From Bacteroidota bacterium (GTDB lineage Bacteria > Bacteroidota > Bacteroidia > Chitinophagales > Saprospiraceae): a DNA stretch of 64,000 nucleotides. Under the pieces are notes generated by a model that saw only the letters and a program-made list of their open reading frames with translations, was not told where the DNA came from and searched no databases. Made by a program: the position numbers and the translations under genes. Below are positions 6,114 to 58,587 of this stretch, piece after piece (position 1 is the stretch's first letter; each line of letters starts with the position of its first letter). The stretch lies in NCBI GenBank assembly GCA_020160935.1, contig JAIUPL010000011.1, positions 1 to 64,000 of the forward strand, in the 5' to 3' direction.

Positions 6114-7517
6114 ATGGATGCGCGCCTGATCAAATTATTTCGCAAACTTTCTTCTGCCGAACAGCGCCGTTTGTGTGAGTGGACGCAATGTACGCTCATC
6201 AACAAGCGCCCGGAAGTATCGGCTCTATGCGCCTACATGGCGGCCCATGCTGCCCGGCCGGACGCACTCCGCGCCGAACGGCTGCACGAAGCCGCCTTCC
6301 CGGGTCGGCCCTACCAGGCTGCCCGGCTGCGGCACACCATCTCGTATTTGTTGCAGGCTGCGCGCGGATACCTCGCCTGGTCGGAATGGAGCGCCCGCGA
6401 ATCGGATACTGCCCCCTGGCTGTTGCAGTCGCTGCGCAAACGCGGGATGGATTTTATGTTTGCCTATGAAGAGGAGCGTGCTTTCAAGGCACAGGAAGCC
6501 GACCCTCTGCGCGACGCCACGTTTCATCACCGACGTTACCGACTGTTGCAGGAAAAACTCGAAATGGCCAGCCGCAGCGAGCGCTCGGCCCGTATCAGCC
6601 TGCAACCGCTGCCGGAAGCACTCACCACTTTTTACCTGGCCGATATGCTTCGATGGGCTTGTGTGGCTTATACCCACCAGGCCGTTGCCGGACAAACGTA
6701 TCATTTTGCACTGCTGGATACCTTGCTGGACAGGCCCGAAACCGAGCATTTATTGAAGGAACCGGCTGTCGGAGTCTATTTTCACGTCTATCAAACCCTG
6801 AAAAACAAGGATGATAACGGGGCTGCCCATTTTCAGCGACTAAAAGACCTGCTTTCTGAACACGCCGATATTTTTCCTTCTACAGAAATGCGCGGACTCT
6901 ACCTGCTGGCCATCAATGGCTGCATCCGGCGCATGAACGCCGGGCAGCGCGCTTACGTGCGGGAAGCCTTCGAACTGTATCGCGCGGCCCTGACGCGTGG
7001 TTTTGTGCTGGAAGACGGCTGGATGTCGGGTTTTACCTACAAAAATATTATTCGCATCGGCGCAGTGCTGGGCGAGGAAACCTGGACGCAGCATTTTCTG
7101 GAACAATACCGGCAGGCCTTGCACCCACGCGACCGCGACAACCTGTACAAATACAACCTGGCTTATTTGTATTTGCAAAAACAGGATTATGCGCAAGCCA
7201 TGCCCCTGCTTCAACAAATTAATTTCGACGACGCCCTGCACCAACTGGAGGCCCGCCGCATGCTGCTGCGCAGTTATTTCGAACTCGGCGAATGGGAAGC
7301 CCTGGATTCCTTACTGACCAGTTTCAGCGCCTACCTGCGCCGACAAAAAGGCCTGGGTTATCACCGTACCACCAATGAAAAACTGCTCTATTTCGTGCGA
7401 AAACTAATCGAATTGCAGGGCAGCAGCCGGGCCGCACGTAACAAACTGCGCGAGGAAGTAGAAAAAACGGTGGATGTGGCCGAGCGGCAGTGGTTGTTGG
7501 AGAGAAGTGAGAAGTGA
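6114..7517 (+). CDS. Conserved helical-repeat (TPR-like) protein of unknown function
   Basis: 467 aa from the ATG at 6114 (MDARLIKLFRKLSS). A possible start at 6003 adds a low-complexity Asn-rich stretch that overlaps the divergent gene's 5' region, so I prefer 6114. There is no signal peptide. The sequence is almost entirely alpha-helical, with an N-terminal pattern (LIKLFRKLSSAEQRRL) resembling a cytoplasmic Bacteroidota family of ~500-residue proteins, and TPR-like helices at 370-440 (YNLAYLYLQKQDYAQAMPLL). I do not recognise a specific function. The last codons (ERSEK-stop) are supplied by the adjacent GAGA-rich palindrome arm. Confidence 0.8.
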   Translation: MDARLIKLFRKLSSAEQRRLCEWTQCTLINKRPEVSALCAYMAAHAARPDALRAERLHEAAFPGRPYQAARLRHTISYLLQAARGYLAWSEWSARESDTAPWLLQSLRKRGMDFMFAYEEERAFKAQEADPLRDATFHHRRYRLLQEKLEMASRSERSARISLQPLPEALTTFYLADMLRWACVAYTHQAVAGQTYHFALLDTLLDRPETEHLLKEPAVGVYFHVYQTLKNKDDNGAAHFQRLKDLLSEHADIFPSTEMRGLYLLAINGCIRRMNAGQRAYVREAFELYRAALTRGFVLEDGWMSGFTYKNIIRIGAVLGEETWTQHFLEQYRQALHPRDRDNLYKYNLAYLYLQKQDYAQAMPLLQQINFDDALHQLEARRMLLRSYFELGEWEALDSLLTSFSAYLRRQKGLGYHRTTNEKLLYFVRKLIELQGSSRAARNKLREEVEKTVDVAERQWLLERSEK

Positions 7518-7725
7518 GAAAAGTGAGAGGGTGAGAGATGTGAGAGAGTGAGAGATGTGAGAGGGTGAGAGTTCGTAGAGTAGACCGCTTCGCTCATTGG
7601 ACTTGTATTAAAGTAAAGTGGTACACTCTACGTACTCTCACTCTCTCACTCTCTCACTCTCTCACATCTCTCACCCTCTCACATCTCTCACATCTCTCAC
7701 GCTCTCACATCTCTCACGCTCTCTT
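7501..7725. repeat. Long palindrome, GAGAG family (P1)
   Basis: The left arm (7501-7581) is iterated GAGAG(T/G)GAGA units and the right arm (7634-7725) is the complementary CTCTCAC units. The centre contains the core GTTCGTAGAGTAGACCGC and a mirrored GTACACTCTAC. It lies between two plus-strand genes, overlaps the stop of the upstream one, and could fold into a very long hairpin. Confidence 0.9.
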
Positions 7726-7734
7726 TTCTTTTCC

Positions 7735-7774
7735 TGGGTACATTTTTCCCGCTCCCGACACATGATGACAAACG
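7735..7774 (+). promoter_or_regulatory. Shared bipartite upstream motif, copy 1
   Basis: TGGGTACATT, exactly 14 bases, CACAT, 5 bases, CAAACG. The same arrangement with the same 14-base spacing occurs upstream of the genes at 8947 and 11772. The ATG lies 61 bases downstream of the first base. Confidence 0.6.
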
Positions 7775-7795
7775 ATTCAAAAACAATCTGTCATC

Positions 7796-8764
7796 ATGAA
7801 AAATATCCTTGCCCTTGTTTGCTTCCTGCTGCTCGGTTTGAGCGCCTTTGCCCAGCCCAATAAAAAAGTAGCGCCTGCCCTGTACAAATTCCTCAACACG
7901 GAATTTATGGTGAAATACCGCGACCTGCGCATACAGGCCGAAAGCGATGCTATTCGGGTACAATCGGGCCAGGCCGAGCTCAAACCGGCCGATCAGTATC
8001 GCCTGCGTACCGCTTACGATCAGACGGCTTCCCGCGCCAACCAGTTGCTGGAATCCATCAAACAGGATTTTCAAAACCCGAAAAAACTCAAGTCCATCGC
8101 TGAATTTCCCGATATGTACAGCGACGGCCTGCGCTTCAAACTCCAGGAACTGGCCGATTTCTATGCCGCCAATTTCCAGCAGGCACTGGCCGATGCGCAG
8201 GTGAAAAAGGAAGAAGTAGACGGCAGCGTGGCGCTCGTGCTGATCGTCGAACTGATTGGTCTCACCAAAGGCCTCACCAATTATTTCGCCGACATCAAAC
8301 GCGAAGCGAAACAATATACAGAAAAATACCTGCACGAAAACCTTGTACAGCCATACCGCTGGCGCTACTGGGAAGAGTTGTCGGGCAGCGCTTCTCCCTA
8401 TGAAAAGTATGAAAAAAGTTCGGAAGCCGATCTGAACAACACACAATCGGACGATGCCTTCGACCGCCAGTTGCAAAAAGTGAACGCCACGATCCAGATG
8501 ATACCCGCCAAAACCGACAACCCCTACGGTTCCGACCAGTTCAACCTGCCCCCCGACGGACCGGCCTCCGCCGATTCTTCTTTCCAGTACGAAGACTGGT
8601 CACCCACGGCGCCCACCGTACCGACGGCTGCCCCCGACAGTACCAGCCACAGAAATCTCATTTCCAAACCCGCGCCTGCATCGGCGCCGCAACAGCAAAA
8701 GCCAGCCGCTGCCCCGAAAAAAACTGTTCCGGCCAAACCAATCCCTTCCAAATCGGGGCAGTAA
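7796..8764 (+). CDS. Secreted protein of unknown function
   Basis: 322 aa starting MKNILALVCFLLLGLSAFAQ, a clear signal peptide cleaved after FAQ. The mature part to about residue 210 is predicted helical (YDQTASRANQLLESIKQDF). The C-terminal ~60 residues are rich in Pro, Ala, Ser and Lys (PAPASAPQQQKPAAAP) and probably disordered. There is no sorting domain or lipobox, so a periplasmic location is most likely. I do not recognise the family. It shares the TGGGYACATT...CACAT upstream motif with the next secreted gene and with the C1A peptidase gene, so the three may be co-regulated. Confidence 0.8.
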   Translation: MKNILALVCFLLLGLSAFAQPNKKVAPALYKFLNTEFMVKYRDLRIQAESDAIRVQSGQAELKPADQYRLRTAYDQTASRANQLLESIKQDFQNPKKLKSIAEFPDMYSDGLRFKLQELADFYAANFQQALADAQVKKEEVDGSVALVLIVELIGLTKGLTNYFADIKREAKQYTEKYLHENLVQPYRWRYWEELSGSASPYEKYEKSSEADLNNTQSDDAFDRQLQKVNATIQMIPAKTDNPYGSDQFNLPPDGPASADSSFQYEDWSPTAPTVPTAAPDSTSHRNLISKPAPASAPQQQKPAAAPKKTVPAKPIPSKSGQ

Positions 8765-8946: not shown

Positions 8947-10842
8947 ATGAAAAAGTCAATTTTTGCTCTGCCATTTTTTCTGCTGTTACTTGTTAGCAGC
9001 GCATTGTTTTCCCAAAACTGGGTAGCCCGCCACAACCTGAGCAGCGCCCAGTATCAGACCGAAGTGAACAAATGGGTCAACCTCGGCTACCGCCTTACCC
9101 AGGTGAGCGGTTACAGCGACAACGGCCAGGATCGTTACGCGGCTATTTTCGAACAGGAAAGCGGACCGCAATGGGCGGCTCGCCACGGACTAACCGGCGC
9201 ACAGTATCAAACCGAATTCAACACACTTACAGGTCAGGGGTACCGGCCGATTCAGGTCAGCGGCTTCGCTTCCGGCAACCAGGCCAAATTTGCCGCCATT
9301 TTTGTCAAGGAAAACAATCCTCCGCAATGGCATGCCCGCCACAACATGACCTCCGCACAGTATCAGGATGAATTTACCGACAACAGCAACCAGGGATATC
9401 GCCTCGTAGATGTGAGCGCCTACACCGTTGGCGGAACCGACTACTACGCCGCCATCTGGGAGAAAAAAGCCAATGCGCCGCAGGTGTACGCCCGCCACCG
9501 CATGACCAACAGCGAATACCAGAGCGAAGTGAATGAAAAAGCCTCCCAGGGTTACCGTCTCGTCAAGGTTTCGGGTTATTCGCTCAGCAATTCGCCTCGC
9601 TTTGCCGCTATCTGGGAAAAAACCGGCGGCCCGGTATGGGCAGCACGCCACGCCCTCAATGGCGCTCAAAACTACCAGGACGAATTCGAACGCCTCTACT
9701 ACCAGGGTTACCGCCCGGTGTGGGTAAATGGCTACACAGTGAATAATCAGGATGTGTACGCGGCCATTTTTACCTGTGCCGATCCGTTTAAAGCCAATGA
9801 AATGGAAGCCGTCGACAACCTGGTGGAAGCCTATATGCAGCAAAACGACGTACCAGGCATTTCCATTGCCATCGCCCGGAACGGCAAACTGGTACTGGCC
9901 AAAACATACGGCTATGCCGACCAGGAAGCAGGCGAAAAAGTGGCCCCGCGACACAAATTCCGCATCGCCAGTGTGTCAAAACCTTTTACCGCCGCTGCTA
10001 TCATGCGCCTGGAACAGGAGAACAAACTTGAACTGGGCGACAAAATCTTCGGCCCCGGCAGTATCCTGGGTACCACCTACGGCAACCAGCAGGCTTACAC
10101 CAACAACCTCAAAAACATTACCGTAGATCACCTTCTCACGCACCACGCTGGCGGTTGGGATCAACAGGGTGACCCGATCGGTCAGGATCAGTCGTGGGGC
10201 ATGTCGACCTACATCAACAACACCCTCAACAACTACCCGCTCGACAACGCACCCGGCGTTGCCTACGATTATTCCAATTTTGGTTTTGCCCTCCTGGGCC
10301 GTGTCATCGAGAAAAAAACAGGCCAAACGTATGAAGATTATGTGCAGGATAAAATCCTGACCCCCTGCGGCATCACCGGCATGCAAATCGGTGGCAGCAC
10401 CCTGGCGCAACGCAAACCCAACGAAGTGAAATACTACGGCAACAGTGCCTATTTCTACAATATTCCGCGCATGGACTCGCACGGCGGATGGATTGCAACA
10501 CCCATTGATCTGGTGCGCTTCCTCGTACACGTCGACCAGTCGAATACCGTTCCCGACATCCTCAGCGGTGGTACATTGACTAAAATGTTTACACCCAGCG
10601 CTACCAACAACTCTTACTGCAAAGGATGGCAGCGGGTGCCAAGTTCCGGCTCCCTGTGGCACAACGGCGCTTTGCCCAGCACCCTTTCAGAAATGAAGCG
10701 CACTTCCGACGGTTTCTGCTTCGCTATTCTCATGAACACTCGCCCAGGCACCGGCAAAGACACCAACGGCGTGGCAATGGGCCAGTTGCTCGGCGATATC
10801 AAGAATACGATCACGAAGTGGCCGACGCATGATCTTTTTTAG
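8947..10842 (+). CDS. BTRD1-repeat serine hydrolase (class C beta-lactamase fold)
   Basis: 631 aa with signal peptide MKKSIFALPFFLLLLVSSA. Residues ~24-275 are five tandem ~50-residue repeats with the pattern WxARHxLsxAQYQxE...QGYRxxxVsGY...AAIWEK, which I recognise as bacterial tandem repeat domain 1, also seen in polyglycine hydrolases. Residues ~290-625 are a serine beta-lactamase-like domain: the SxxK motif S342-V-S-K345, YSN at ~442-444, and HNG near 572 in place of KTG. The catalytic set is intact, so a secreted serine peptidase or esterase is likely. Substrate is unknown, though cell-wall or peptide substrates fit the repeat domain. A terminator follows at 10918-10952. Confidence 0.9.
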   Translation: MKKSIFALPFFLLLLVSSALFSQNWVARHNLSSAQYQTEVNKWVNLGYRLTQVSGYSDNGQDRYAAIFEQESGPQWAARHGLTGAQYQTEFNTLTGQGYRPIQVSGFASGNQAKFAAIFVKENNPPQWHARHNMTSAQYQDEFTDNSNQGYRLVDVSAYTVGGTDYYAAIWEKKANAPQVYARHRMTNSEYQSEVNEKASQGYRLVKVSGYSLSNSPRFAAIWEKTGGPVWAARHALNGAQNYQDEFERLYYQGYRPVWVNGYTVNNQDVYAAIFTCADPFKANEMEAVDNLVEAYMQQNDVPGISIAIARNGKLVLAKTYGYADQEAGEKVAPRHKFRIASVSKPFTAAAIMRLEQENKLELGDKIFGPGSILGTTYGNQQAYTNNLKNITVDHLLTHHAGGWDQQGDPIGQDQSWGMSTYINNTLNNYPLDNAPGVAYDYSNFGFALLGRVIEKKTGQTYEDYVQDKILTPCGITGMQIGGSTLAQRKPNEVKYYGNSAYFYNIPRMDSHGGWIATPIDLVRFLVHVDQSNTVPDILSGGTLTKMFTPSATNNSYCKGWQRVPSSGSLWHNGALPSTLSEMKRTSDGFCFAILMNTRPGTGKDTNGVAMGQLLGDIKNTITKWPTHDLF

Positions 10843-10872
10843 AGGTGAGAGGTGAGAAGCGAGCGGTGAGAT
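10841..10872. repeat. GAGAG-family half arm
   Basis: A run of GAGGTGAGAGGTGAGAAGCGAG directly after the hydrolase stop, resembling one arm of the palindromes at 7501 and 16229 but with no partner arm. It looks like a decayed or solo half element. Confidence 0.6.
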
Positions 10873-10917
10873 GTAGGTTAGTGCCTCAGCCGGAACATAT
10901 GTGTGTCAGGCTTGTTT

Positions 10918-10975: not shown

Positions 10976-11638
10976 ATGAAAGTAGAAATCTGGAGCGACA
11001 TCATGTGTCCCTTCTGCTACATAGGCAAGCGCCACTTCGAAGCGGCGCTGCGCGAATTTCCCGGTCGGGAACACATCGAAATCGTCTGGAAAAGTTTTCA
11101 GTTGGATCCCTCCATTCCACAGGAAATGCCCGAAGCGCAAAATGTATACCGCTACCTGGCCGAGCGAAAAGGCATTTCTTACGAACAATCGGCACAAATG
11201 CATGAAAACGTGGTGCTGATGGCCAAAAATGCCGGCCTCGATTACCATTTTGATAAAGCCGTAGTCGCCAATTCTTTCCGCGCGCACCGCATGATTCAAT
11301 TAGCCAAAACCAAGGGCCTCGGCGACCAGGCGGAAGAACGGCTTTTTTCGGCCTATTTCACCGAAGGAAAAAACTTTGGAAGTCCGGCTGTATTGGCTGA
11401 ACTCGGCCGCGACATCGGCCTCAGCGAGGCGGATGTGCAGGAGGCTCTTTCCAATGAAAAATATGCCGATCTGGTGCGCGCCGACCTGGAAGAAGCCCGG
11501 GAAATTGGTATCAATGGTGTGCCTTTTTTTGTGTTCGACCGCAAATACGCGATTTCCGGCGCTCAGCCGGTAGCGGTGTTTTTACAGGCGCTGGAACGTT
11601 CGTTTGGGGAATGGCGAAGTGGTGGCATGGGAAATTAA
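10976..11638 (+). CDS. DsbA-family (FrnE-like) thiol oxidoreductase
   Basis: 220 aa from the ATG at 10976 (MKVEIWSDIMCPFCYIGK). The CPFC motif at C11 and C14 sits right after the first beta strand, as in FrnE/2-hydroxychromene-carboxylate-isomerase-like DsbA proteins. The C-terminal 'INGVPFFVFDRKYAISGAQP' block carries the cis-Pro loop typical of the family. There is no signal peptide, so it is cytoplasmic. An earlier ATG at 10937 falls within a terminator and was rejected. The last codons (SGGMGN-stop) lie inside a perfect 43-bp palindrome. Confidence 0.93.
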   Translation: MKVEIWSDIMCPFCYIGKRHFEAALREFPGREHIEIVWKSFQLDPSIPQEMPEAQNVYRYLAERKGISYEQSAQMHENVVLMAKNAGLDYHFDKAVVANSFRAHRMIQLAKTKGLGDQAEERLFSAYFTEGKNFGSPAVLAELGRDIGLSEADVQEALSNEKYADLVRADLEEAREIGINGVPFFVFDRKYAISGAQPVAVFLQALERSFGEWRSGGMGN

Positions 11639-11707
11639 AAAACACAGGCGGTTATTTTTCGTATGAAAAATAACCGCCTGTGTTTTTTAATTTCCCATGC
11701 CACCACT
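11618..11707. repeat. Perfect 43-bp palindrome spanning a stop codon (P16)
   Basis: Arms 11618-11660 and 11665-11707 are exact reverse complements separated by GTAT. The left arm includes the last six codons and stop of the DsbA-like gene. The centre (ACACAGGCGGTTATTTTTC and its complement, followed by TTTTTT) can act as a bidirectional terminator, but the symmetry extends well beyond what termination needs. Confidence 0.95.
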
Positions 11708-13270: not shown

Positions 13271-16243
13271 ATGCGTTTCCTGCTTTTTATATGGATATTT
13301 CCGGCTTTCTGTTTTGCCCAAAACATGCAGACAGACTGGCAAAAAATGCCCGGCCACGCGGGTGATCAAGTCATTCACCAGGTGATCGAAGCCACCAACG
13401 GATATCTGGTGGCAGTGGGCCAAACAAACGCTTCTACCGTCGGCGGCTCCGATGGCTGGCTACTCGTTTCAGACCACAGTACCGGACAGGTGCTTTTTGA
13501 AAAACGGTTCGGCGGCAAAAAAGACGACGTGCTGTACAGTGTGACTCAAACCTTTGAGGGAAATTTCCTGCTGGCCGGTGCTACCGCCTCGCAGGGCAAG
13601 GGCAAAACCGATGGCTGGCTTCTGCTCGTCAACGACCGGGGCGATATCCTGCGTGAAACCGTGCAAGGCACGCCTGGTCGCGACGAATACCGGTTTGTGT
13701 TGCTGCAACCCGATGGCTCGGTGTTGCTGGCCGGACAAAGCAACGACGGCGACACCGGCGATGTCTGGCTTTCCAAAATGCAAAACGACAGCCTGCTTTG
13801 GGAGAAAAATCTCGGCAGCGCTGAATTCAGTACCCTGAGCGGACTGGTGGGCACACCCGATGGAGGACTCGTATTTTGCGGAAATACGGGCAAAAAAGCC
13901 GAAAACGGCGATGGCAACATCTACCTCGCCAAGGCCGATGCAAAAGGCAAACTGGCCTGGAAAAAGTTTTTCGGGGAAAAAGGCTGGGAAGAGGCGCTGG
14001 CACTCATTACCACGCGCGACGGAGGTTTTGCCATGGCGGGACTCAACAATCCCAAAGGCGCCGGCGACCCCGACGGCTGGCTGCTGAAAGCCAATCGCGA
14101 TGGCACCCGGCAATGGGACAAGTCGTTCGGTGGAAAAAATCCCGACCTGTTCCAGTCGCTCCTGCAAACCCCCGACGGCGGTTTTCTGCTCGCCGGCGCC
14201 ACACAGTCGCAACGCAGTGGCGCCCGCTTTTCCGATGCCTGGCTCGTGCAAACCACACCGGGCGGCGACCTGGAATGGGAACAACCGCAAGGCTCCGACA
14301 AAGACGATGTTTTTACCGCCATTCTTCCCCTCCACAATGGCAGCGTAGCCCTGGCGGGTAAATACGACGGCAACAACACCTGGCTGTTGCGCTGCTCGGA
14401 TGTGTACCACGCCGCCAATGCGTTGGCAGGCATTCGTGATGCCGTATCCGTAAAAGTTTCCGATGCGGCGCTGCACACTGCCGATGGTACTTTGACCCCC
14501 GGCCAGCAGTCGTATGTGTCGTTTGTCATTACCAATACTGCCGACCTCGACTTGCCCGATCTGCGTGTGAGCGTGGATAATAAATCGGGAAGCAGCGATA
14601 TAATCGCCTGGAATACAAACTATTATGGCGGCGTTGCAAAGGCTGGTACGCTGGAAGCGCGTATTCCTGTGAAAGGCAGTGCTGAACTGGAAGATGGGCA
14701 ACAAACCATGTCGTTTACCATCACTGCCGGTACCAAAACACTGCAATCGTTCGATAAAACCTTTACCCTGCGCAAACCCCGACCGGCTACCCTGATCATT
14801 GCCGACCACCAGTTTTCGGGCAGCGGTAGTTCCGATCAGGTGACGCTCAAAGTGAGTATTGAAAACACCGGCGACTCTACTTCCCGGGCCGCAGAAGTCG
14901 TGTTCGGGTGTCCTGCCGGGTACACAGCCAAAAGTGCTTCCACCTCGCCCATGGGGCTGGTGCCAGCCCACAGCCGCCGGGATGTGCGTTTTGTTTTTGA
15001 AAAAAATGCAGGCAATACTTCCAACAGTGCGGCCATTTCATGCAAAGTGAAAGAAGCGAATCGCGACAAAGCAACTAAAACCCTGACCTGGCAGGAAGGC
15101 AACAGTTCCATGATTTCCAAAGGGCCCATTCTGGTGTGGACTGACCCGGCGCCGCATGAAACCGGTTCGAACAAAGTGCGTAAAACTGACGACCATATCG
15201 AAGTAAAAATGACCGTTGTGTCGCCCAAACCGGTCAACACCAAAAACATCAAGGTGAAAGTGAACGGCGTAGAAATGGACGGCTCTAAATTCAATGAGGA
15301 AGATCTCTCGCCGCCACGCCAGGAAGAGAGCCGCTTTATTTATACCTACAAAAACAAGATTCCGCTTCAGCAAGGCAACAACCACGTGGAAGTGGTGGTC
15401 GACGATGTGGTGTCCGATGCGCTGGAAGTGGAATTTGCCCCCGAACGTGCCAATTTGTATGTGTTGAGCATCGGCCCGACCCACGAAGACCTGCAATATA
15501 CCACACGCGATGCCATCGATTTTGCGAAGGCTTTCCAGGAGCAGGGTGGGGCGGGCAAATTGTTCAACGAGGTATTTATTACGGAACTCACTACTCCCGA
15601 AAAAACCGACCTGACAGGTATCAAACAGGCCATGTACGACCTGGCGTATCAGTGGGACGACCATCAGATCAAGCAGAGCGACATGCTGATCGTGTTTATT
15701 TCCTCCCACGGAAAAATTGCCGATAACCGCTTTAAAATCCTGCAAACGGGCTATAATCCGAAGTACGAACGCCTCGCTGTCGATTACAAAACGGACATTC
15801 TGGAGGTGCTGAACAATATCAATTGCAAAAAACTCATCTTTCTGGATGCCTGCCACAGCGGCGGCGCCAAGGAAGGCTTCGGCGGTGTGAGTAAGGCGGT
15901 GGTGGACCTGGCCAAAACACAACCCGGATTCAGCACCCTCACGTCCTGCGGCAGTACGGAAAAGTCGTATGAAGACAAGGCCTGGGGCAACGGCGCTTTC
16001 ACGGAAGCCCTGCTCGATGCTTTTTCTGGAAAATCCTGCACCGACGCCAACGGCTCTTTTTCGGCTGATACTGACGGCGATCATATTCTACGGCTCGGCG
16101 AATTGTACGATTTCCTGCTCCGCCGCGTGCCGGACATGGTAAAATCGGCGATTCCCAATGCCCCGACCGGCCAAACGCCTTTTATGCCGGAAAGCCAGTT
16201 GGATAAGAATCTACCTGTATATCTTGTTAGAGGTGAGAAGTGA
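13271..16243 (+). CDS. Secreted caspase-domain (C14) protein with repeat N-terminus
   Basis: 990 aa from the ATG at 13271 (MRFLLFIWIFPAFCFAQ). The frame extends upstream to a TTG, but that would precede the signal peptide. Residues ~25-380 are ~55-residue repeats (GYLVAVGQT..., GNFLLAGAT..., DGWLL) like beta-propeller repeats of Bacteroidota secreted proteins. Residues ~400-520 and ~520-620 look like CARDB/Ig-type modules. Residues ~720-985 are a caspase domain: LYVLSIGPTHEDLQYTTRDA, the catalytic His near 814 in FISSHGK, and Cys near 860 in DACHSGG, both present. It follows the C1A peptidase gene by 32 bases. It may be a secreted peptidase or an orthocaspase-like processing enzyme. Its last codons (RGEK-stop) come from the next palindrome arm. 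Confidence 0.9.
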   Translation: MRFLLFIWIFPAFCFAQNMQTDWQKMPGHAGDQVIHQVIEATNGYLVAVGQTNASTVGGSDGWLLVSDHSTGQVLFEKRFGGKKDDVLYSVTQTFEGNFLLAGATASQGKGKTDGWLLLVNDRGDILRETVQGTPGRDEYRFVLLQPDGSVLLAGQSNDGDTGDVWLSKMQNDSLLWEKNLGSAEFSTLSGLVGTPDGGLVFCGNTGKKAENGDGNIYLAKADAKGKLAWKKFFGEKGWEEALALITTRDGGFAMAGLNNPKGAGDPDGWLLKANRDGTRQWDKSFGGKNPDLFQSLLQTPDGGFLLAGATQSQRSGARFSDAWLVQTTPGGDLEWEQPQGSDKDDVFTAILPLHNGSVALAGKYDGNNTWLLRCSDVYHAANALAGIRDAVSVKVSDAALHTADGTLTPGQQSYVSFVITNTADLDLPDLRVSVDNKSGSSDIIAWNTNYYGGVAKAGTLEARIPVKGSAELEDGQQTMSFTITAGTKTLQSFDKTFTLRKPRPATLIIADHQFSGSGSSDQVTLKVSIENTGDSTSRAAEVVFGCPAGYTAKSASTSPMGLVPAHSRRDVRFVFEKNAGNTSNSAAISCKVKEANRDKATKTLTWQEGNSSMISKGPILVWTDPAPHETGSNKVRKTDDHIEVKMTVVSPKPVNTKNIKVKVNGVEMDGSKFNEEDLSPPRQEESRFIYTYKNKIPLQQGNNHVEVVVDDVVSDALEVEFAPERANLYVLSIGPTHEDLQYTTRDAIDFAKAFQEQGGAGKLFNEVFITELTTPEKTDLTGIKQAMYDLAYQWDDHQIKQSDMLIVFISSHGKIADNRFKILQTGYNPKYERLAVDYKTDILEVLNNINCKKLIFLDACHSGGAKEGFGGVSKAVVDLAKTQPGFSTLTSCGSTEKSYEDKAWGNGAFTEALLDAFSGKSCTDANGSFSADTDGDHILRLGELYDFLLRRVPDMVKSAIPNAPTGQTPFMPESQLDKNLPVYLVRGEK

Positions 16244-16472
16244 GAGCGTGAGAGGTGAGAGAGTGAGAAGGTGAGAGCGTGAGAGATGTGAGAGTTCGTA
16301 GAGTGTACCGCTTTGCTCCAAAGACTGTTACTCTATGATCTCTCACACTCTCACATCTCTCACGCTCTCATCTCTCTCACGCTCTCACATCTCTCACACT
16401 CTCACATCTCTCACGCTCTCACATCTCTCACGCTCTCTCACCCTCTCACTTCTCTCACGCTCTCTCACCTCT
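16229..16472. repeat. Long palindrome, GAGAG family (P2)
   Basis: Left arm 16229-16295 (GAGAG units), right arm 16338-16472 (CTCTCAC units, longer than the left). The centre GTTCGTAGAGTGTACCGC closely matches the centre of the element at 7501, though the arms differ in register and length. It ends a few bases before the next start codon. Confidence 0.9.
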
Positions 16473-16476
16473 GACC

Positions 16477-20106: not shown

Positions 20107-20311
<205 letters not shown>

Positions 20312-20354: not shown

Positions 20355-20383
20355 GCACAATATGGAACGTATGTCAGAACCGC

Positions 20384-21795: not shown

Positions 21796-21936
21796 GTTAT
21801 TGGTTATTAGTTATTGGTTATTAGGGATGGTAAGGGTTTATCTGTACCATCCATGGGCATTCCTTATTGTGTAGCCCATAGATGGTACAGATAAACCCTT
21901 ACCATCCCTAATAACCAATAACTAATAACCAATAAC
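21796..21936. repeat. Palindrome with TTATTGGTTATTAG arms (P4)
   Basis: Arms of about 60 bases (21796-21858 and 21873-21936) are reverse complements with one mismatch. They run from iterated TTATTGG units into a unique segment (GGGATGGTAAGGGTTTATC). It sits between the 5' ends of divergent genes, so it cannot be only a terminator. Confidence 0.9.
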
Positions 21937-26125: not shown

Positions 26126-26352
26126 GGTTGATAAGAGTTGATAAAGGTTGATGAGGGTTGATATTCAACCACTCGATGAATGAAAATTCAGGAGTTGAGA
26201 TGGTTGAGGAGTTGAGATGGTTGAGGAGTTGAGATTCAACCGCTCTATGAATGCAAAATACAACCCTTACCCCGAGTCGCCATTTATCAACCCTCATCAA
26301 CCTTTATCAACCCTCATCAACCCTTTATCAACCCTATCAACCCCATCAACCC
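26126..26352. repeat. Palindrome, GGTTGATGA family, inverted core (P5)
   Basis: Left arm of GGTTGATRAG units and right arm of ATCAACCCTC units. The centre holds ATATTCAACCACTCGATGAA and CCCCGAGTCGCCATTTATC, the reverse complement of the core shared by the elements at 45889 and 47519. An internal segment (TTCAACC...CTCKATGAATG) is duplicated around GGAGTTGAGATGGTTGA iterations. Confidence 0.9.
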
Positions 26353-30760: not shown

Positions 30761-30763
30761 GGT

Positions 30764-30795
30764 TATCGGTTATTGGTTATCAGTTATCAGGGGGC
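30764..30795. repeat. TTATTGG-family half arm
   Basis: GGTTATCGGTTATTGGTTATC repeats right after the adhesin stop. They resemble one arm of the palindrome at 21796 with no partner arm. Confidence 0.6.
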
Positions 30796-30822
30796 TAATT
30801 CCTGGTATTGGAAATAAAAAAA

Positions 30823-31347: not shown

Positions 31348-31486
31348 GATTTACGATATACGATTACATGATTTCAGATTTCCGATTGGATTTGTGATTT
31401 TCGATTGAGCACATAGCCTCCATCTGAAATCATAAATCTTAAATCCAATCGGAAATCTGAAATCATGTAATCGTATATCGTAAATC
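31348..31486. repeat. Palindrome with ATTTACGATATACG arms (P6)
   Basis: 46-base perfect arms at each end (GATTTACGATATACGATTAC and complement). The units GATTGGATTT and CGATTACATGA are shared with the palindrome at 33064, and the two elements flank the haloperoxidase gene on both sides. Confidence 0.92.
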
Positions 31487-37621: not shown

Positions 37622-38146
37622 AAGCAAAAAAAGAGGATGTGTGAAAGTATGATTAAGAATTGCTGAAACCGGGGCGCAATATCGGGTGTGTTTTTAAATA
37701 TCCGATCATTTTCAGGATGATTTTTTCAAACCCCCGAAAGAACACACCATTATGGTTCACTCTTTATTTGTCTGTTGCAAGCATGGGAAAAGGTGGATGA
37801 AGAAATGTGGCAATAGATGCCTCGAAACATCTTGGCGCGGCGGGGAACTATTCTCTTGAACAATTCCCCGCCGAAAATGCGCCTCGAAGTTGAAATCCCA
37901 TGAACATATCCAAAACACTAACCCGCTTCACTTTTGAAACGGTATTCCGTGTCTTTTATATGATACAAAAGTGCATCAGATTTGGCTTGTAAAAAATTAC
38001 ATTTTTGGTAGATTGTGAAATGTTTTTGGAAGGAAAATTTGAGGTTAAGTGAAAGTGTCTGGAGATATAAGTGTGAAAAATAGAAAGGAGAAGGTATAGT
38101 CTTTCTGCTTTGGCGGCAGGGCTGAAACACACCTTTTGTATTTTTA

Positions 38147-38301
38147 ATCAACCACGAAGGACACGAAGGGCACAAAGCGTAGCGTACACCTTCCTTATTC
38201 AAAGCGATTAAATATTCGTTGTTTTTGTCCATTTTTGAGAGGTGTGACCCGTAAAATGGTGTACGCTACGCTTTGTGTCCTTCGTGCTCTTCGTGGTTGA
38301 T
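38147..38301. repeat. Palindrome with ACCACGAAGGACACGAAG arms (P9)
   Basis: Arms 38147-38190 and 38258-38301 are 44-base reverse complements with about one mismatch. They combine the CACGAAGGACACGAAGG unit with GCGTAGCGTACACC. It sits in the large gene-poor gap between divergent genes. Confidence 0.92.
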
Positions 38302-38557
38302 AAAAAATAAAAGTTGTGTTTTCTGGAACTTGACAGCCTTGCCTTTGGACGTAACGGCAGAAGCCCTGGAAATGAACCGGTATATAGAAGTAAAAAGATC
38401 AATCAGGTAGATTTGTGAAATTTGTTCTCTGAAAAAAATCTCCTCCACTACATGAATTGAAAAAATATGACAAAGCGCTGGCTAGAGCAGTGTTCCTCTC
38501 CGCACGAACAATCCGCATTCTTTCCTATCTTCACCGCTGAAAATTGATACTTCAAAA

Positions 38558-39889
38558 ATGCAAAACCTTCTCATTATCGGCGCCGGGCGTTCGGCGACAG
38601 TATTGATCAATTACATTCTGGAGCAAGCCAGACAGCATAATTTCTTTGTTACTGTTGCGGATGCTGACCTGAGCCTGGCACAGCAAAAAGTACAAGGCCA
38701 TACCAACGGCCGCGCCATCTGGCTCGACGCATCCAAACCGACCGACCGAAAGGACATCATCAATCGCCACGACGTCATTGTGTCGTTGCTGCCACCCCAA
38801 ATGCACCTCGACGTAGCGCAGGATTGTATCGTACTGGGCAAACACATGGTGACGGCTTCCTACGTGAGCAAACAGGTGTTCCGACTCGGCGACGAAGCGC
38901 GCCAACGCGCCCTCGTATTCATGAACGAACTGGGCCTCGATCCCGGTATCGACCACATGAGCGCCATGCAACGCATCCACCAGATCAAGGCAAAAGGCGG
39001 CAAAATCACCGCATTTTATTCCTATACCGGCGGCCTGGTGGCTCCGGAAAGCGACAACAACCCCTGGCACTACAAATTCAGTTGGAACCCCCGGAATGTG
39101 GTGCTGGCCGGACAAGGTACCGCGCAGTTTCTGGAAGACAACAAACTGAAATACATCCCGTATCGCCGTTTGTTTCGCCAGTATCGCTTGGTGGATATTC
39201 CGAACATGGGCCAGTTTGAAGTGTATGCCAACCGCGACTCATTGTTGTACCGCGACGCTTATGGTTTGCAGGACATCAAAACCCTGTTCCGCGGCACTAT
39301 TCGCCACCGTGGTTTCTGTGATGCCTGGAATGCACTGGTGCGCATCGGCCTCACGGATGCAACTTTCCCCATCGTCGATTCGGACCAACTGACCTACCAC
39401 GACCTGATGGAGGCTTTCCTCGGTATCAGCCAACACACCGGCTCTGTGAAAGACCGCGTAGCGAAGATGATCGAAACGGAGCCCGACAGCGAGATCATGA
39501 AAAAACTGGAGTGGCTCGGACTGTTCAGCAAACGCCGTATCAAACTGAAAAATGCCACGCCTTCCCTTATCCTTGAAAACCTGCTGCTCGAAAAATGGGC
39601 ACTCGGCCCTCAGGAAAAGGACATGGTCATCATGCAGCACGTGTTCGAATATGAACTGAACCGCAAAAAGAAAAAACTCACCTCGACCCTTATCATGAAA
39701 GGGCATGATGGCTCGGATACTGCTATGTCGCGTCTGGTCGGCCTGCCCCTGGGTATTTTTGTGAAACTGCTTCTACTCGGGAAAATCAGCACCACGGGCG
39801 TCAATATCCCGACCATGCCGGAAGTGTACGAGCCAGTGATGCAGGAGTTGGAAGAGCATGGGGTACGGTTTATTGAGGAGGAAGAATGA
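38558..39889 (+). CDS. Saccharopine dehydrogenase family protein (LYS9-like)
   Basis: 443 aa, MQNLLIIGAGRSATVLINYIL: an N-terminal Rossmann fold with GxGxxxxxLI, then SLLPPQMHLDVAQDCIVLGKHMVTASYVS and NELGLDPGIDHMSAM, the hallmark of glutamate-forming saccharopine dehydrogenase. SYTGGLVAPESDNNPWHYKFSW is the substrate-domain signature. The family interconverts saccharopine with glutamate and aminoadipate semialdehyde in lysine metabolism, with NAD(P) as cofactor. It is cytosolic and monocistronic. A palindrome begins two bases after the stop codon. Confidence 0.92.
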   Translation: MQNLLIIGAGRSATVLINYILEQARQHNFFVTVADADLSLAQQKVQGHTNGRAIWLDASKPTDRKDIINRHDVIVSLLPPQMHLDVAQDCIVLGKHMVTASYVSKQVFRLGDEARQRALVFMNELGLDPGIDHMSAMQRIHQIKAKGGKITAFYSYTGGLVAPESDNNPWHYKFSWNPRNVVLAGQGTAQFLEDNKLKYIPYRRLFRQYRLVDIPNMGQFEVYANRDSLLYRDAYGLQDIKTLFRGTIRHRGFCDAWNALVRIGLTDATFPIVDSDQLTYHDLMEAFLGISQHTGSVKDRVAKMIETEPDSEIMKKLEWLGLFSKRRIKLKNATPSLILENLLLEKWALGPQEKDMVIMQHVFEYELNRKKKKLTSTLIMKGHDGSDTAMSRLVGLPLGIFVKLLLLGKISTTGVNIPTMPEVYEPVMQELEEHGVRFIEEEE

Positions 39890-39890
39890 A

Positions 39891-40035
39891 GTTGGTAGTC
39901 CTGAGTCGTAAGTCCTGAGTCCTGAGTCTGTAGAGTACACTTACTTATGTTTGGCATTCATTTTATTGATGCCAAACATAAGTAAGTGTACTCTACAGAC
40001 TCAGGACTCAGGACTTACGACTCAAGACTACCAAC
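39891..40035. repeat. Palindrome with CCTGAGTC arms and GTAGAGTACAC core (P10)
   Basis: Arms of about 66 bases (39891-39957 and 39970-40035), nearly perfect, from GTTGGTAGTCCTGAGTC units to TGTAGAGTACACTTAC and ATGTTTGGCAT. It shares GTAGAGT...ACTCTAC with the GAGAG-family elements. The right arm supplies the last eight codons and stop of the next minus-strand gene. Confidence 0.92.
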
Positions 40036-40559
40036 ATCAGTTCATCCAAAAACCCGTCCGCCCGCTTATCCACCGCAGCCTTGTCGGTTGGATTGCCTGC
40101 TTCATCGTACGAATCTTTCACTTTGGGTGTCGGGAACATGGCCGGCACCAGCAGCGCACGAATTTTAAACATTGTAAAACTCAGGGAAGTAATCACCTGT
40201 GTGCCGCCGAACACACCATCGGATACCGTTGCAATGGCTACCGGCTTGCGATGCCATTCTTCGTACAATACATCGATGGCATTTTTCAGGGCAGCCGGAT
40301 AGCCGCCGTTGTATTCGGGCGTAACAATAATGACGCCGTCGGCAGATTTGATTCGACTGGCGTATTCCAGCAAAGCCGCAGATGGTTCGGGCAAAAAACG
40401 CAGGCGCTCTTCAAATACCGGAAACTGATATTCTTTCAGATCGATCAGATCGACCGAGGCCAATTGGCGCTCTTCCATGCGTTTTTGCAGGTATAAAGCG
40501 ACGCGGTGGCTGGCACGGCCGGTGCGAACACTGGCGGATAGGATGGCGATGGTGGGCAT
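40008..40559 (-). CDS. NADPH-dependent FMN reductase
   Basis: 183 aa, MPTIAILSASVRTGRASHRVALYL, the flavodoxin-like phosphate-binding start (SxRxGR) of NAD(P)H-dependent FMN/quinone reductases. ADGVIIVTPEYNGGYPAALKNAIDVL is the family's flavin-binding TPEYNGG signature. It is cytosolic and probably dimeric. The final residues LVVLSRKS and the stop are encoded by the palindrome arm, so the C-terminus was likely set by insertion or growth of that element. Confidence 0.93.
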   Translation of the reverse strand: MPTIAILSASVRTGRASHRVALYLQKRMEERQLASVDLIDLKEYQFPVFEERLRFLPEPSAALLEYASRIKSADGVIIVTPEYNGGYPAALKNAIDVLYEEWHRKPVAIATVSDGVFGGTQVITSLSFTMFKIRALLVPAMFPTPKVKDSYDEAGNPTDKAAVDKRADGFLDELMLVVLSRKS

Positions 40560-41060: not shown

Positions 41061-41064
41061 ACCC

Positions 41065-45888: not shown

Positions 45889-46084
45889 GGGGTTGATGGG
45901 GTTGATGAGGTTGATGAGGGTTGATAAATGTTGATGGGGGTTGATGAGGTTGATGAGGGTTGATAAGAGTTGATGAGGGTTGATAAATGGCGGCTCGAGG
46001 TAAGGTTTGTTCTTTTCTTTCATCGAGTGGCTGAATATCAACCCTCATCAACTCTTATCAACCCTCATCAACCTCATCAACCCT
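45889..46084. repeat. Palindrome, GGTTGATGA family (P11)
   Basis: GGTTGATGAG-type units on the left, ATCAACCCTC units on the right, and a conserved centre from 45980 (AAATGGCGGCTCGAGGTAAG ... TTTCATCGAGTGGCTGAATA). About 90 bases from 45980 match 47553 onward with two mismatches. Confidence 0.92.
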
Positions 46085-47094
46085 CACACCTGCACCACCA
46101 CTTTCCCCACCGTCTTCCCGCTTTGAAACAGCCGGACGGCATCGGGCAATTGTGCAAAAGGATACAAATGCCCCACATGCGGCGGGGCCAATTCGAGCGC
46201 CGACAAATCCTGCAGCAACTGATTCATCAATTCGGCCCGTTCGTAGAGCCAGATCAGGTTGAAACCCAGCACGCCCCGGTTGTTTTCGGGCATTTGTTGC
46301 GGGTCGATTTTAGGCCGGCTGATCCAATGCTTGAGCATGTGCCACTTGTTGGGTTTGTCGCCCGGGCTGGCATAACGCGCCGAACCGAACACAATAATAC
46401 GCCCCATGGGCGCCAACATGTGGTATGGAATGCTGAAAAACGGCCCGCCCACGCTGTCCATCACCAGTTCGAGGGCTCGGCCGTCGAGCGCTTTGCGAAG
46501 TTGTGCTTCAAAATCCTTACCGCGTACGATGACGCGGTCATAACCTTCCCGTTCAGCAAAGGCTACTTTTTCTGCCGATCCAACGGTTCCAATGGTAAAA
46601 CAACCATAAGCCCGCGCAATTTTTAGTGCCTGCAGACCTACACCACCGACGGCGCTGTGAATTAAAACAACAATGCCTTTACGCAAATTACCCAGATGAA
46701 CCATACCGTAGTAGGCCGTCAGGGTTTGCACCAGGTAGGCAGCGCCAGTAGCAAAATCCCAGCCCTGCGGCAATGGGATCGCATAACGCGCGTCGATGTT
46801 CAGGTGGGTGGTGTAGGCGCCAAAACGCGTCACGCCCATCACACGGTCACCGGGCTTCAGGTGTGTAACGGCAGAACCGGTTTTGACAACCTCCCCGGCG
46901 TATTCGAGTCCGGGCGTGAAATTCGTTTTAGGGGCGGCCTTGTACAGGCCCCAGATGGCAAAAACATCGGCGAAATTGAGACCGATGGAACGAACCTCGA
47001 TTTGTACTTCTTCCGGACGTAGTTCGGGCAGTTGAAAATCTTCGCGGTGCAAATCGGCCAGATTGCCGGCATTTAAAACGTATCGAACAGGCAT
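46084..47094 (-). CDS. Quinone-oxidoreductase-like medium-chain dehydrogenase (MDR, VAT1-like)
   Basis: 336 aa, MPVRYVLNAGNLADLHREDF. The GroES-like N-domain has VRSIGLNFADVFAIWGLYKAAP and FTPGLEYAGEVV. The Rossmann domain has HSAVGGVGLQALKIARAYG (GxGxxG-type AxxGGVG). There are no zinc ligands in the catalytic Cys/His positions, so it belongs to the zinc-independent quinone oxidoreductase/VAT1 branch. It is NADPH-dependent and cytosolic. The stop codon is at the edge of the palindrome. Confidence 0.9.
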   Translation of the reverse strand: MPVRYVLNAGNLADLHREDFQLPELRPEEVQIEVRSIGLNFADVFAIWGLYKAAPKTNFTPGLEYAGEVVKTGSAVTHLKPGDRVMGVTRFGAYTTHLNIDARYAIPLPQGWDFATGAAYLVQTLTAYYGMVHLGNLRKGIVVLIHSAVGGVGLQALKIARAYGCFTIGTVGSAEKVAFAEREGYDRVIVRGKDFEAQLRKALDGRALELVMDSVGGPFFSIPYHMLAPMGRIIVFGSARYASPGDKPNKWHMLKHWISRPKIDPQQMPENNRGVLGFNLIWLYERAELMNQLLQDLSALELAPPHVGHLYPFAQLPDAVRLFQSGKTVGKVVVQV

Positions 47095-47518: not shown

Positions 47519-47658
47519 AGGGTTGATGAGGGTTGATGAAGGTTGATGAAGGTTGATAAATGGCGGCTCGAGGTAAGGTTTTTTCTTTTCTTTCATCGAG
47601 TGGTTGAATATCAACCCTCATCAACTCTTATCAACCCTCATCAACCCTCATCAACCCC
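47519..47658. repeat. Palindrome, GGTTGATGA family (P12)
   Basis: Arms of GGTTGATGA and ATCAACCCTC units around the same core as P11. It lies 6 bases upstream of the DUF2177 start and just after the FKBP gene's stop, between co-directional genes. Confidence 0.92.
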
Positions 47659-48099: not shown

Positions 48100-48133
48100 G
48101 AGTAAAGTGGGTTGCTTTGAAGGGGTAAAGGTA

Positions 48134-48300
48134 GGGAATGATGAATGTTTTGGTAGAAGTTATGAGTTATGAGTTATGAGTTATGAGTTTTACTCTCGAT
48201 GCTATTGGTATATCAACTAGAGAGGCCAAGAGCAATGTGAGTAAAACTCATAACTCATAACTCATAACTCATAACTTCTACCAAAACATTCATCATTCCC
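48134..48300. repeat. Palindrome with ATGAGTT tandem arms (P13)
   Basis: Arms of about 61 bases (48134-48195 and 48240-48300) that look perfect, from GGGAATGATGAATGTTTTGG to four ATGAGTT units and TTTTACT. The right arm encodes the last ~12 codons and stop of the DUF1653 gene. It lies between two minus-strand genes. Confidence 0.93.
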
Positions 48301-48504
48301 CACCCACTTGAATCGCTGCATTTCCACCCCGTCTTTCTCCACTTTTTCCAAAAACATGGCGAGTGGGCGTACAAACCAGCGTTGCTCACCGTACAGCGGC
48401 TGATACACCACCATTTGCTCGTCGGTTTCGGAATGGATGGCCGTGCCGATAACAAGATAAAATTTACCTTTAAAGTGTTGATAAACACCGCTTTGTATCT
48501 TCAT
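48262..48504 (-). CDS. DUF1653-family protein
   Basis: 80 aa from the ATG at 48504 (MKIQSGVYQHFKGKFYLVIG). A longer in-frame extension to 48951 is antisense to the next gene's N-terminus and rejected. The sequence follows DUF1653: YQHFKGKFYLVIGTAIHSETDEQMVVYQPLYGEQRWFVRPLAMFLEKVEKDGVEMQRF. It is a small cytosolic domain of unknown function. The final residues GNDECFGRSYEL and stop lie within the palindrome arm, beyond the usual end of the domain. Confidence 0.9.
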   Translation of the reverse strand: MKIQSGVYQHFKGKFYLVIGTAIHSETDEQMVVYQPLYGEQRWFVRPLAMFLEKVEKDGVEMQRFKWVGNDECFGRSYEL

Positions 48505-57521: not shown

Positions 57522-57525
57522 AAAC

Positions 57526-57559
57526 AGAGGTGAGAGGTGAGAGGTGAGAAGTGAGAGAG
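57526..57559. repeat. GAGAG-family half arm between cysE and cysK
   Basis: Iterated GAGGTGAGA units between the co-directional cysteine genes, with no mirrored arm. Confidence 0.6.
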
Positions 57560-57560
57560 T

Positions 57561-58391
57561 TTAGATGACGAAGTTGACGGGTTCTTCAAAGGGTTTGGTG
57601 CGCACTTTTACCTGCGACTGGTGCAGCACAATAGAGTAGGGGGGCACACTTTCCGTGATCCAACTGTTGCCTCCGATCACGGAGTCGTGGCCGATAACCG
57701 TTCTGCCTCCCAGGATCGTGCTGTTGGCATATAAAATACAGTTGTCTTCAATGGTAGGGTGTCGTTTTACGCTGGCCAGCGATTTGTCTACCTGTAAAGC
57801 ACCTAATGTGACGCCCTGGTATATTTTTACGTTGTTGCCGATCACTGCCGTGGCGCCAATAACAACACCCGTGCCGTGGTCGATAAAAAAAGATCGCCCG
57901 ATGGTGGCCGCCGGGTGGATATCGATACCCGTTTTGCCATGCACATATTCGGAAAAAACACGTGGTAGTAAGGGTGCCCCGAGTTGATGCAGCAAATGTG
58001 CAATACGGTACAATGCAATAGCATAAAACCCTGGATAAGTAGCAATGACCTCTTCCATGCAGGTAGCCGCAGGGTCGAATTGCATGATGGCCTCAGAATC
58101 TTCGAGCAGGTGCTCATAAATGTCGGGCAAGCCGTCAAAAAAAGCATCGACAATGGGTGTCATCGAGGTGTCCTGATCGCGCAGTAAGGGCTCCAGCAAT
58201 TGTGTCAGTTCATGCCGCAACAAGGCATATTCCACTCCCGCAGGCCGCGCATCTTCCTTGATCATGGGAAACAGAAACTGGAAAAGTTCGTCGGCGAGGC
58301 GCTGAGATTCCAGTTTGGGCGGAATGCGGTTGTTCGACAGACGGTGCTGCGCATCCAGTTTTTTAAAAAATGTGTCGAGGTCGTTTTGCAT
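57561..58391 (-). CDS. cysE: Serine O-acetyltransferase
   Basis: 276 aa. A helical N-terminal half (~1-130) is followed by a left-handed beta-helix of hexapeptide repeats at ~150-250 (GIDIHPAATIGRSFFIDHGTGVVIGATAVIGNNVKIYQGVTLGA), with catalytic DHGTGVVIG and HPTIEDNCILYA. It acetylates serine for CysK, encoded immediately downstream. The gene is preceded by a ~365-base leader with its own promoter, peptide ORF and hairpin, which suggests attenuation. Confidence 0.96.
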   Translation of the reverse strand: MQNDLDTFFKKLDAQHRLSNNRIPPKLESQRLADELFQFLFPMIKEDARPAGVEYALLRHELTQLLEPLLRDQDTSMTPIVDAFFDGLPDIYEHLLEDSEAIMQFDPAATCMEEVIATYPGFYAIALYRIAHLLHQLGAPLLPRVFSEYVHGKTGIDIHPAATIGRSFFIDHGTGVVIGATAVIGNNVKIYQGVTLGALQVDKSLASVKRHPTIEDNCILYANSTILGGRTVIGHDSVIGGNSWITESVPPYSIVLHQSQVKVRTKPFEEPVNFVI

Positions 58392-58429
58392 ATTAAATAG
58401 CGTTTTAAGCGTGTTTGGTTTTGGGAGGG

Positions 58430-58587
58430 CGGTGTTTTAGTGTTTTGGTGTTTTGGTGTTTTGGTGTTTTGGTGTTTTTGTGTGCTTTACTCTAGGGATT
58501 TAAGAATATGGGTTGGGAGTCCAAGCATATAGCCCGAAGCCCTCCAAAACACAAAAACACAAAAACACCAAAACCCCAAAACACAAC
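58430..58587. repeat. Palindrome with GTTTTGGT tandem arms (P15)
   Basis: Left arm of GTGTTTTGGT units (58430-58485) and right arm of ACCAAAACAC-type units (58541-58587), with a unique centre. It lies inside the predicted cysE leader transcript, between the hairpin and the gene. Confidence 0.88.

Follow-up and report, generated by a model that had tools for sequence, protein, structure and literature searches.

Long intergenic palindromes with heptamer-array arms in a Saprospiraceae genome: dispersal, turnover and possible spread by template switching

Heptamer repeats and long palindromes have so far been noticed piecemeal, in several phyla. In the passages of the literature considered here, the intergenic heptamers of Xanthomonas and Nostoc (GGGAATC / GGGGA(C/T)T) are the closest described systems; the Xanthomonas units lie on average 28 nt behind the upstream gene and 160 nt from the next one, and form 70 inverted pairs in Xcc and 75 in Xac (PMC4692102). 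The TAACTGA repeats of Beggiatoaceae, Cyanobacteria and Bacteroidetes are present as 170 sets of direct repeats, of which one is inverted (PMC4679880). Those passages of the two articles name no proven way by which heptamers spread. Here we report on a stretch of 64,000 nucleotides from a bacterium of the Saprospiraceae (G000:C28:1-64000, hereafter the window), whose intergenic regions carry long palindromes with arms made of short iterated units. Our literature search returned no description of this palindromic form, the two articles just cited being the nearest.

Three further lines of work bear on these elements, again as far as the cited passages go. Repetitive extragenic palindromic (REP) sequences are 20-40 bp long, carry an unpaired GTAG/CGTC tag, occur as inverted doublets, and are thought to be mobile (PMC3116915, PMC3733652). 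Hairpins, and an interrupted palindrome of 246 bp, are substrates of the nuclease SbcCD (PMC6265447, PMC3315005), and the arms of inverted repeats can be homogenized by template switching (PMC8604942).

A preliminary description of the window had reported at least fifteen long intergenic inverted repeats with iterated arm units that differ from locus to locus. The repeats were recovered at their reported positions, also by an independent script, and 15 were found, their units being as described. Our finder accepts ungapped arms of at least 25 bp with at least 80% complementarity and a loop of at most 250; it favours symmetric cases, and insertions into arms may consequently be undercounted. 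It places the palindromes at starts 7509, 11618, 16271, 20134, 21796, 26126, 31348, 33087, 38139, 39887, 45938, 47519, 48130, 56285 and 58440, with ungapped arms of 25-79 bp that are 90-100% complementary and spans of 90-236 bp, longer where outer arms continue. The window belongs to a genome of 5.84 Mb (G000, 51 contigs, 97.9% complete), and 861,748 bases of it (862 kb) were read for palindrome counts. They contain 150 palindromes, or 17.4 per 100 kb, a density that extrapolates to about 1000 for the entire genome. A 420-kb stretch with 61 of them had none in any of three local shuffles; chance consequently produces none. The further copies that the preliminary description had led one to look for exist, since 117 of the 150 have a relative (a match of at least 60 bp at 75% or more) elsewhere in the sample. 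One natural palindrome reaches 208 bp with matching 87-bp arms (C43:310590). The palindromes are extragenic: the centre falls within a called gene (100 aa or longer) for only six of the 150 and for none of 160 in the related genome G043. An Rfam search of the window at gathering scores gave no match. Our motif list leaves 51 of the 150 and 37 of the 160 G043 palindromes outside any assigned family.

The arms are short-period arrays combined with non-repetitive inner cores. Among intergenic tandem arrays in 400 kb, 44 have period 7 and each other period from 4 to 15 accounts for 0-10, which agrees with the proposal that the arms are microsatellite-like, while some families are built from units of 8-10 nt. 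The units AGTCCTG, AGTTATG and AGTGCGA had pointed to AGTNNNN as a general form of the heptamer, but GATGAAT and ATTGCGG do not follow it, and the rule was rejected. That several loci have conserved cores in common was borne out by a genome-wide core search. For the pattern GTCYGTAGAGTNNRCC there are 123 forward and 122 reverse matches in G000, with corresponding counts of 110/100 in G043, 60/54 in G006, 12/11 in G016, 12/11 in G046, 1/1 in G023 and 0/1 in G055; it was not found in the other 34 of the 41 genomes of our comparison set. The modules also have an order. In palindromes whose two arms both contain the GTAGAGT core together with CCTGAGTC arrays, the arrays are external to the core in 39 of 39; with GTGAGAG arrays, this holds for 19 of 19. 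Elements are nested as well: TTGAGGG arrays sit, two-sided or one-sided, in the loops of AGTTATG and TTATTGG hairpins.

Within a locus, the two arms resemble each other more closely than arms of the same family do between loci. For the CCTGAGTC family in G000 (n = 22), left and right arms have an identity of 0.908 within loci vs 0.763 between loci, and in G043 (n = 36) the values are 0.871 and 0.813. Deviations from the consensus number 134 in both arms and 119 in one arm in G000. Those common to both arms include multi-base changes and one-base length changes, and these are easier to explain by copying than by stepwise compensation. Palindromes also resemble their neighbours. Mean similarity in G000 is 0.312 for palindromes less than 2 kb apart, 0.116 at 2-5 kb and 0.043-0.052 beyond 5 kb, a neighbour similarity matched by none of 5000 permutations; in G043 it is 0.251, 0.106 and 0.089-0.096, respectively (P 0.0018). 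Among the origins that the preliminary description had considered, palindrome formation by template switching best fits this arm symmetry and local resemblance. Gaps that often stay occupied while their sequence changes between sister species are likewise more suggestive of self-copying than of a classical jumping gene.

Comparison with G043 (about 103 kb of G000 DNA aligned, about 85% DNA identity in the aligned parts) reveals turnover at fixed sites. The window has 18 sites, 15 palindromes and three half arms, and three of them have no G043 alignment. At the 15 comparable sites, G043 holds the same family in five, another family in six, no palindrome in two and a half arm in two, same and different family being judged by eye. 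The filled and empty sites anticipated between strains are thus found, here between species. Of 63 gene pairs conserved with G043, 16 have a filled gap in both genomes, four in G000 only, three in G043 only and 40 in neither (P 1e-8); at least two of these pairs, from contig C51 with 34-46% protein identity, may not be orthologous, and C43:407201 is counted as filled in G000 only although G043 has a palindrome there. The 16 doubly filled gaps hold the same family in 11 cases and different families in five, again by eye; the P of 0.002 for gaps in which the two species carry different families is built on the 63-pair counts and ignores gap type. Restricted to the 15 convergent pairs, the counts are eight, zero, one and six in the same order (P 0.0014). 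At three orthologous CCTGAGTC-family sites, the left arms of the two species have an ungapped identity of 0.66-0.80, roughly the level of random members of the family (0.777). Toward G006, G016 and G046, six gaps allow 12 comparisons between two filled sites; none of the 12 shows the same arm repeats in the two genomes, but the outermost GTGAGAG is retained at C43:107283 in G006. Empty, half, full, nested and replaced copies hence coexist in sister species at 85% DNA identity, which makes the order of events readable. Collectively, the sequences demonstrate that the families are dispersed, that they are placed at gene 3' ends (see below), that fixed sites undergo turnover, that arms agree within a locus, that elements are nested and that neighbours resemble each other.

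Our preferred reading, to which we give somewhat less than an even chance, is that these palindromes spread and are kept symmetric by template switching coupled to the replication fork, and that they are tolerated where SbcCD is missing. Template switching at the fork would be the main source of new copies, its targets being single-stranded DNA nearby and the hairpin tips of existing palindromes. Slippage would lengthen the arrays, and intrastrand switching within the hairpin would keep the arms symmetric; a dedicated transposase would not be needed. The space behind genes might simply be a harmless landing place, as the native gap of about 25 bp would contain no promoter. Accumulation, finally, would follow from the lack of the classical hairpin nuclease SbcCD in most of the genus. 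A bolder version, in which the palindromes are enzyme-less selfish DNA copied at the fork by hairpin-primed template switching, spreading into neighbouring gaps and older hairpin tips, keeping their arms alike by self-templating and held in check elsewhere by SbcCD, is conceivable but rather unlikely. Were it true, then the absence of SbcCD would have let palindromes fill about half of the convergent gaps in this clade.

The distribution of SbcCD is the part of this reading that can be followed across genomes. SbcD (TIGR00619) scores above the cut-off in five of the 41 genomes (G004, G008, G012, G051 and, marginally, G014) and has no match in G000; in most of the remaining genomes there is a partial match that stays below this threshold, and in many of them it lies next to a compact Rad50-like gene. 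No genome has SbcC above the cut-off, and the designation of a genome as SbcCD-bearing therefore rests on SbcD. The palindrome sample leaves out G014, with its marginal match, and G003, which has one strong SbcC-like match. In 275 kb of the four clear carriers, we found 11 palindromes (seven in G012, four in G008, none in G051 and G004, whose samples amount to only 53 and 36 kb), none of them short-looped (loop not above 60). Among 369 palindromes from eight genomes lacking an SbcD above the cut-off, 273 are short-looped, 228 of these coming from G000 and G043; the contrast has a P of 6e-7 when kinship is ignored. Outside the palindrome-rich clade, G005, G009 and G022 contribute 14 short-loop palindromes in 240 kb, and G007 contributes one and G021 none in 20 kb each. 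We infer from this distribution that the lack of SbcCD may act as a permission for palindromes, and if so, the role of SbcCD as a guardian becomes testable by comparative genomics. As side observations, G000 has two weak SbcC matches, one of which is the SMC gene of the window, and G043 carries adjacent Mre11-like and Rad50-like genes at G043:C67:129905-133413.

Several observations weigh against the reading just outlined. Copying in action was not seen in any of our data. Concordance between arms is weaker in G043, with 130 shared and 273 one-arm deviations. Regarding the nuclease, G009, G007 and G021 have no SbcD above the cut-off and yet few palindromes (three in 80 kb, one in 20 kb and none in 20 kb), so that the absence of SbcCD is not sufficient. 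In a one-gene tree, the rich genomes (G046 left out) form one clade whose sister clade holds G008 and G012, which brings the SbcCD link close to a single phylogenetic contrast. In the same tree, the sister of the carrier G008 is G024, a genome with no SbcD match. Moreover, every rich genome but G000 carries partial genes of both kinds, SbcD-like and Rad50-like; the two are neighbours in G043, G016 and G046 and lie on separate contigs in G006. The order of modules is fixed, CTGAGTC lying outside GTAGAGT by 39 to 0, which a transposase would bring about equally; we looked for two modules in both nesting orders and found none. The palindrome at 48130 is the only clear case in which an outer layer was kept on both sides while the inside was replaced. 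Lastly, site conservation is not significant toward G006 (21 pairs, P 0.40), G016 (17 pairs, P 0.16) and G046 (10 pairs, P 0.57).

The strongest rival is a transposase that recognizes hairpins and acts in trans. The palindromes would then be miniature transposons, akin to REPINs or to miniature inverted-repeat transposable elements (MITEs), moved by a Y1/HUH or another such enzyme and often inserted into hairpin tips, a scenario that we consider possible, if doubtful. The likeness to REPINs and MITEs drawn in the preliminary description stands as far as dispersed families, shared cores and filled or empty sites between species are concerned; dispersal as whole palindromes, the constant module order and a core spacing of about 60 bp in most of the places listed would also suit a transposase. 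The REPIN label is not supported, and a MITE should leave a target-site duplication, of which none is visible in the one clean pair (a 3-bp gap in G000 vs a 162-bp palindrome in G043), the other filled and empty pairs being too diverged for such duplications to be read. The reported lack of a transposase nearby is half confirmed: genes were called with a home-made hexamer model, and among the 41 called in the window, the 20 whose proteins were scanned have no transposase domain. Y1 transposases (PF01797), the one type covered by our genome-wide search, have matches in 33 of the 41 genomes and two genes in G000, but the link to them was not borne out, as the flanks of both genes (3.2-3.3 kb each) carry other palindromes. 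Judged by eye, one is a RAYT-like gene (L052:1274-2214) lying between REP-like GTTGGCGAGGACGCCAAC palindromes of its own, which are separate from the long palindromes and have no match in the window, and the other is an IS200-like gene (L051) beside a palindrome that belongs to no window family. Nor do Y1 numbers track palindrome richness, with two genes each in G000 and G043 against six in the palindrome-poor G012 and two in G009. Furthermore, each of the many unrelated families would have to be recognized.

The palindromes could, alternatively, be functional 3'-end hairpins under selection (terminators, mRNA stabilizers or insulators of convergent genes), with the site being kept and the sequence being free. 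Their placement speaks for such a role. In G000, they occupy 56 of 117 convergent gaps (48%), 75 of 391 tandem gaps (19%) and 14 of 117 divergent gaps (12%), and in G043, 59 of 105 (56%), 78 of 465 and 18 of 103, respectively. In tandem gaps they lie a median of 7 bp (G000) or 5 bp (G043) behind the stop codon, and 7.5 bp in convergent gaps; 58 of 75 tandem palindromes in G000 and 65 of 78 in G043 are nearer to the stop than to the next start. All three gene arrangements do occur, as had been pointed out, but given this strong 3'-end bias, the conclusion formerly drawn from them, that these are not ordinary terminators, is weakly founded. Sites conserved with G043 despite changed sequences, the folding energies predicted for the 15 palindromes of the window as RNA (-58 to -137 kcal/mol), and arm changes that often preserve pairing would likewise agree with a function. 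However, a T-run (at least six T in nine), the hallmark of intrinsic terminators, adjoins only 15 of 300 palindrome edges, which leaves a terminator role unsupported, and the presence of a palindrome makes no difference to the rarity of canonical terminators in convergent gaps (6 of 56 with, 5 of 58 without). About half of the convergent gaps have no palindrome, the filled state of a site varies between species, and some congeners are palindrome-poor. Convergent gaps measure a median of 24.5 bp once the palindrome is subtracted and 27 bp where there is none, as expected of insertions into a compact genome. On this evidence, selection for functional hairpins appears unlikely to be the explanation.

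Independent microsatellite growth at every site, followed each time by a separate inverted duplication and involving no dispersal, is very unlikely. The AGTTATG array does occur in many unrelated phyla, mostly in non-palindromic form (12 of the 80 fetched loci are palindromic), and pure arrays such as GATGAAT at 20107 could have arisen in this manner; the many loci that share non-repetitive cores refute it for the core-bearing families. Palindromes can be misassembled and several of the related genomes are fragmented assemblies, but orthologous sites hold palindromes of the same or of other families in G043, G006, G016 and G046, and we rate an assembly artefact as extremely improbable.

Table 1. 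Palindromes and half arms of the window and the state of the corresponding site in G043.
Feature	Positions	Strand	Site in G043
GTGAGAG-armed palindrome, GTAGAGT core	7509..7696	.	no alignment
Half arm, GTGAGAG family, without partner arm	10841..10880	.	no alignment
Perfect palindrome, 43-bp arms, loop 4 (AGTGGTGGCATGGG...)	11618..11707	.	no alignment
GTGAGAG palindrome, GTAGAGTGTACCGC core on left	16230..16470	.	same family
GATGAAT-armed palindrome	20107..20311	.	GGATTAGAAGGATT palindrome at site
TTATTGG-armed palindrome, GGGATGGTAAGGG core	21796..21936	.	GTTGATGAG palindrome
GTTGATGAG palindrome	26126..26350	.	same family
Half arm, TTATTGG/TTATCGG type	30762..30800	.	half arm as well
GATTTACG palindrome, paired with 33066-33206	31348..31486	.	
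GATTTACG palindrome, second of local pair	33066..33206	.	
CACGAAGG palindrome, GTAGCGTACACC core, between divergent genes	38139..38309	.	
CCTGAGTC palindrome, GTAGAGTACAC core	39887..40039	.	same family
GTTGATGAG palindrome	45890..46086	.	GTTTTGG palindrome at site
GTTGATGAG palindrome	47519..47657	.	GGATTAGAAGGAT palindrome
Palindrome, outer GGGAATGATGAATG layer, inner AGTTATG layer	48130..48304	.	
GTTGATGAG palindrome, one-sided GTAGAGT/GTGAGAG element in loop	56226..56570	.	GGATTAGAAGGATT palindrome
Half arm, GTGAGAG family	57526..57560	.	half arm as well
GTTTTGG palindrome	58432..58590	.	no palindrome

Individual sites of the window (Table 1) add to this picture. The palindrome at 7509 overlaps with its first 9 bases the end of a called gene (6018-7517), and the one at 11618 starts like another at C43:346365. 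At 21796, the G043 palindrome has a similar GTTAT stretch on its left side only. The local pair at 31348 and 33066 corresponds in G043 to two near-identical GATTTAAG palindromes, and the palindromes at 45938 and 47519, 1.6 kb apart, are 95% identical over 137 bp. No palindrome was found at the 38139 site in G043, G006 or G016. The 39887 site is filled in G006 and G016, where the GTAGAG core is retained and the arm heptamers differ. At 48130, the outer GGGAATGATGAATG layer is common to G000 and G043 and the inner content differs, another multi-layer palindrome having replaced the AGTTATG layer in G043. At 58432, the aligned flanks are 40 bp apart in G043 vs 210 bp in G000. The half arms had been viewed as decayed copies; those at 30762 and 57526 are half arms in G043, too, and hence old, whereas the one at 10841 could not be compared.

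Some neighbouring features of the window may be recorded as well. An imperfect palindrome at 33821-33940, near AGAGCGTGTTTTAA ends, resembles the AGAGCATGTTT-ended 162-bp palindrome of G043 opposite the 3-bp gap in G000. Two of the palindromes have as direct neighbour a short GC-rich hairpin with A/T runs (at about 20318-20360 and 58590-58640); by eye these hairpins resemble terminators, and G043 has them conserved. The gene at 40581-42240 encodes an AAA ATPase (AAA_15/AAA_21), and the stretch in which it lies, possibly a variable island, is far shorter in G006 and differs in G016. The SMC gene at 42303-45854 adjoins the palindrome at 45890.

Heptamer arrays as such are widespread. The exact (AGTTATG)4 array is present in at least 111 stretches of named genomes, and the 80 matches listed (L193-L272) include Nostoc, Rivularia, Calothrix and many Bacteroidota, Flavobacterium among them, as well as Elusimicrobia, Marinimicrobia, Syntrophaceae, Colwellia, Ignavibacteria and a Methanosarcinaceae archaeon bin; many of these records are metagenome bins and some arrays, that of the archaeon included, lie at a contig end, so that misassignment is possible. 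Only 12 of these 80 stretches, three of them in named Saprospiraceae records, are palindromic by our finder and 68 are not; the palindromic form is consequently less widespread than the arrays. When 395 genomes of the class were searched for palindromic AGTTATG arrays with a gap of 8-38 bases, none matched, but the pattern was too strict to be informative, as it also missed G000.

The small dispersed repeats (SDRs) of Nostoc are reportedly 21-27 nt long, lie within heptamer arrays and can be nested; our palindromes share with them the nesting and the heptamer arrays, while the SDRs are not known to form long palindromes. Numerous long perfect inverted repeats in one genome are also known from the mitochondria of Nematomorpha, where, unlike here, they lie, according to the passages considered, inside the protein-coding genes of an animal organelle (PMC6649704). 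Like REPINs, the palindromes of the window are high-copy extragenic palindromic elements; unlike REPs as portrayed in the cited passages, they measure at least 90 bp, any GTAG that they contain lies in the paired part of the core, and a different palindrome flanks the RAYT-like gene. With the TAACTGA repeats, they have in common the heptamer arrays and a patchy occurrence over distant phyla, and two of the period-7 arrays counted here have the unit AACTGAT, which is TAACTGA once rotation and strand are disregarded. As described in the part consulted, however, TAACTGA repeats are direct and, in the Beggiatoaceae genome, mostly upstream of starts (PMC4679880), whereas ours are palindromic and downstream of stops. 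The heptamers of Xanthomonas and Nostoc come closest, being of period 7, mostly intergenic, located behind genes, present as inverted pairs and variable between related species; in what the cited passages relate, they comprise one G-rich unit type (PMC4692102), and the long shared cores, the nesting and the replacement of one family by another set our palindromes apart from them. The nearest kin of these palindromes is therefore to be found among heptamer and REP-type elements, of which they are a variant.

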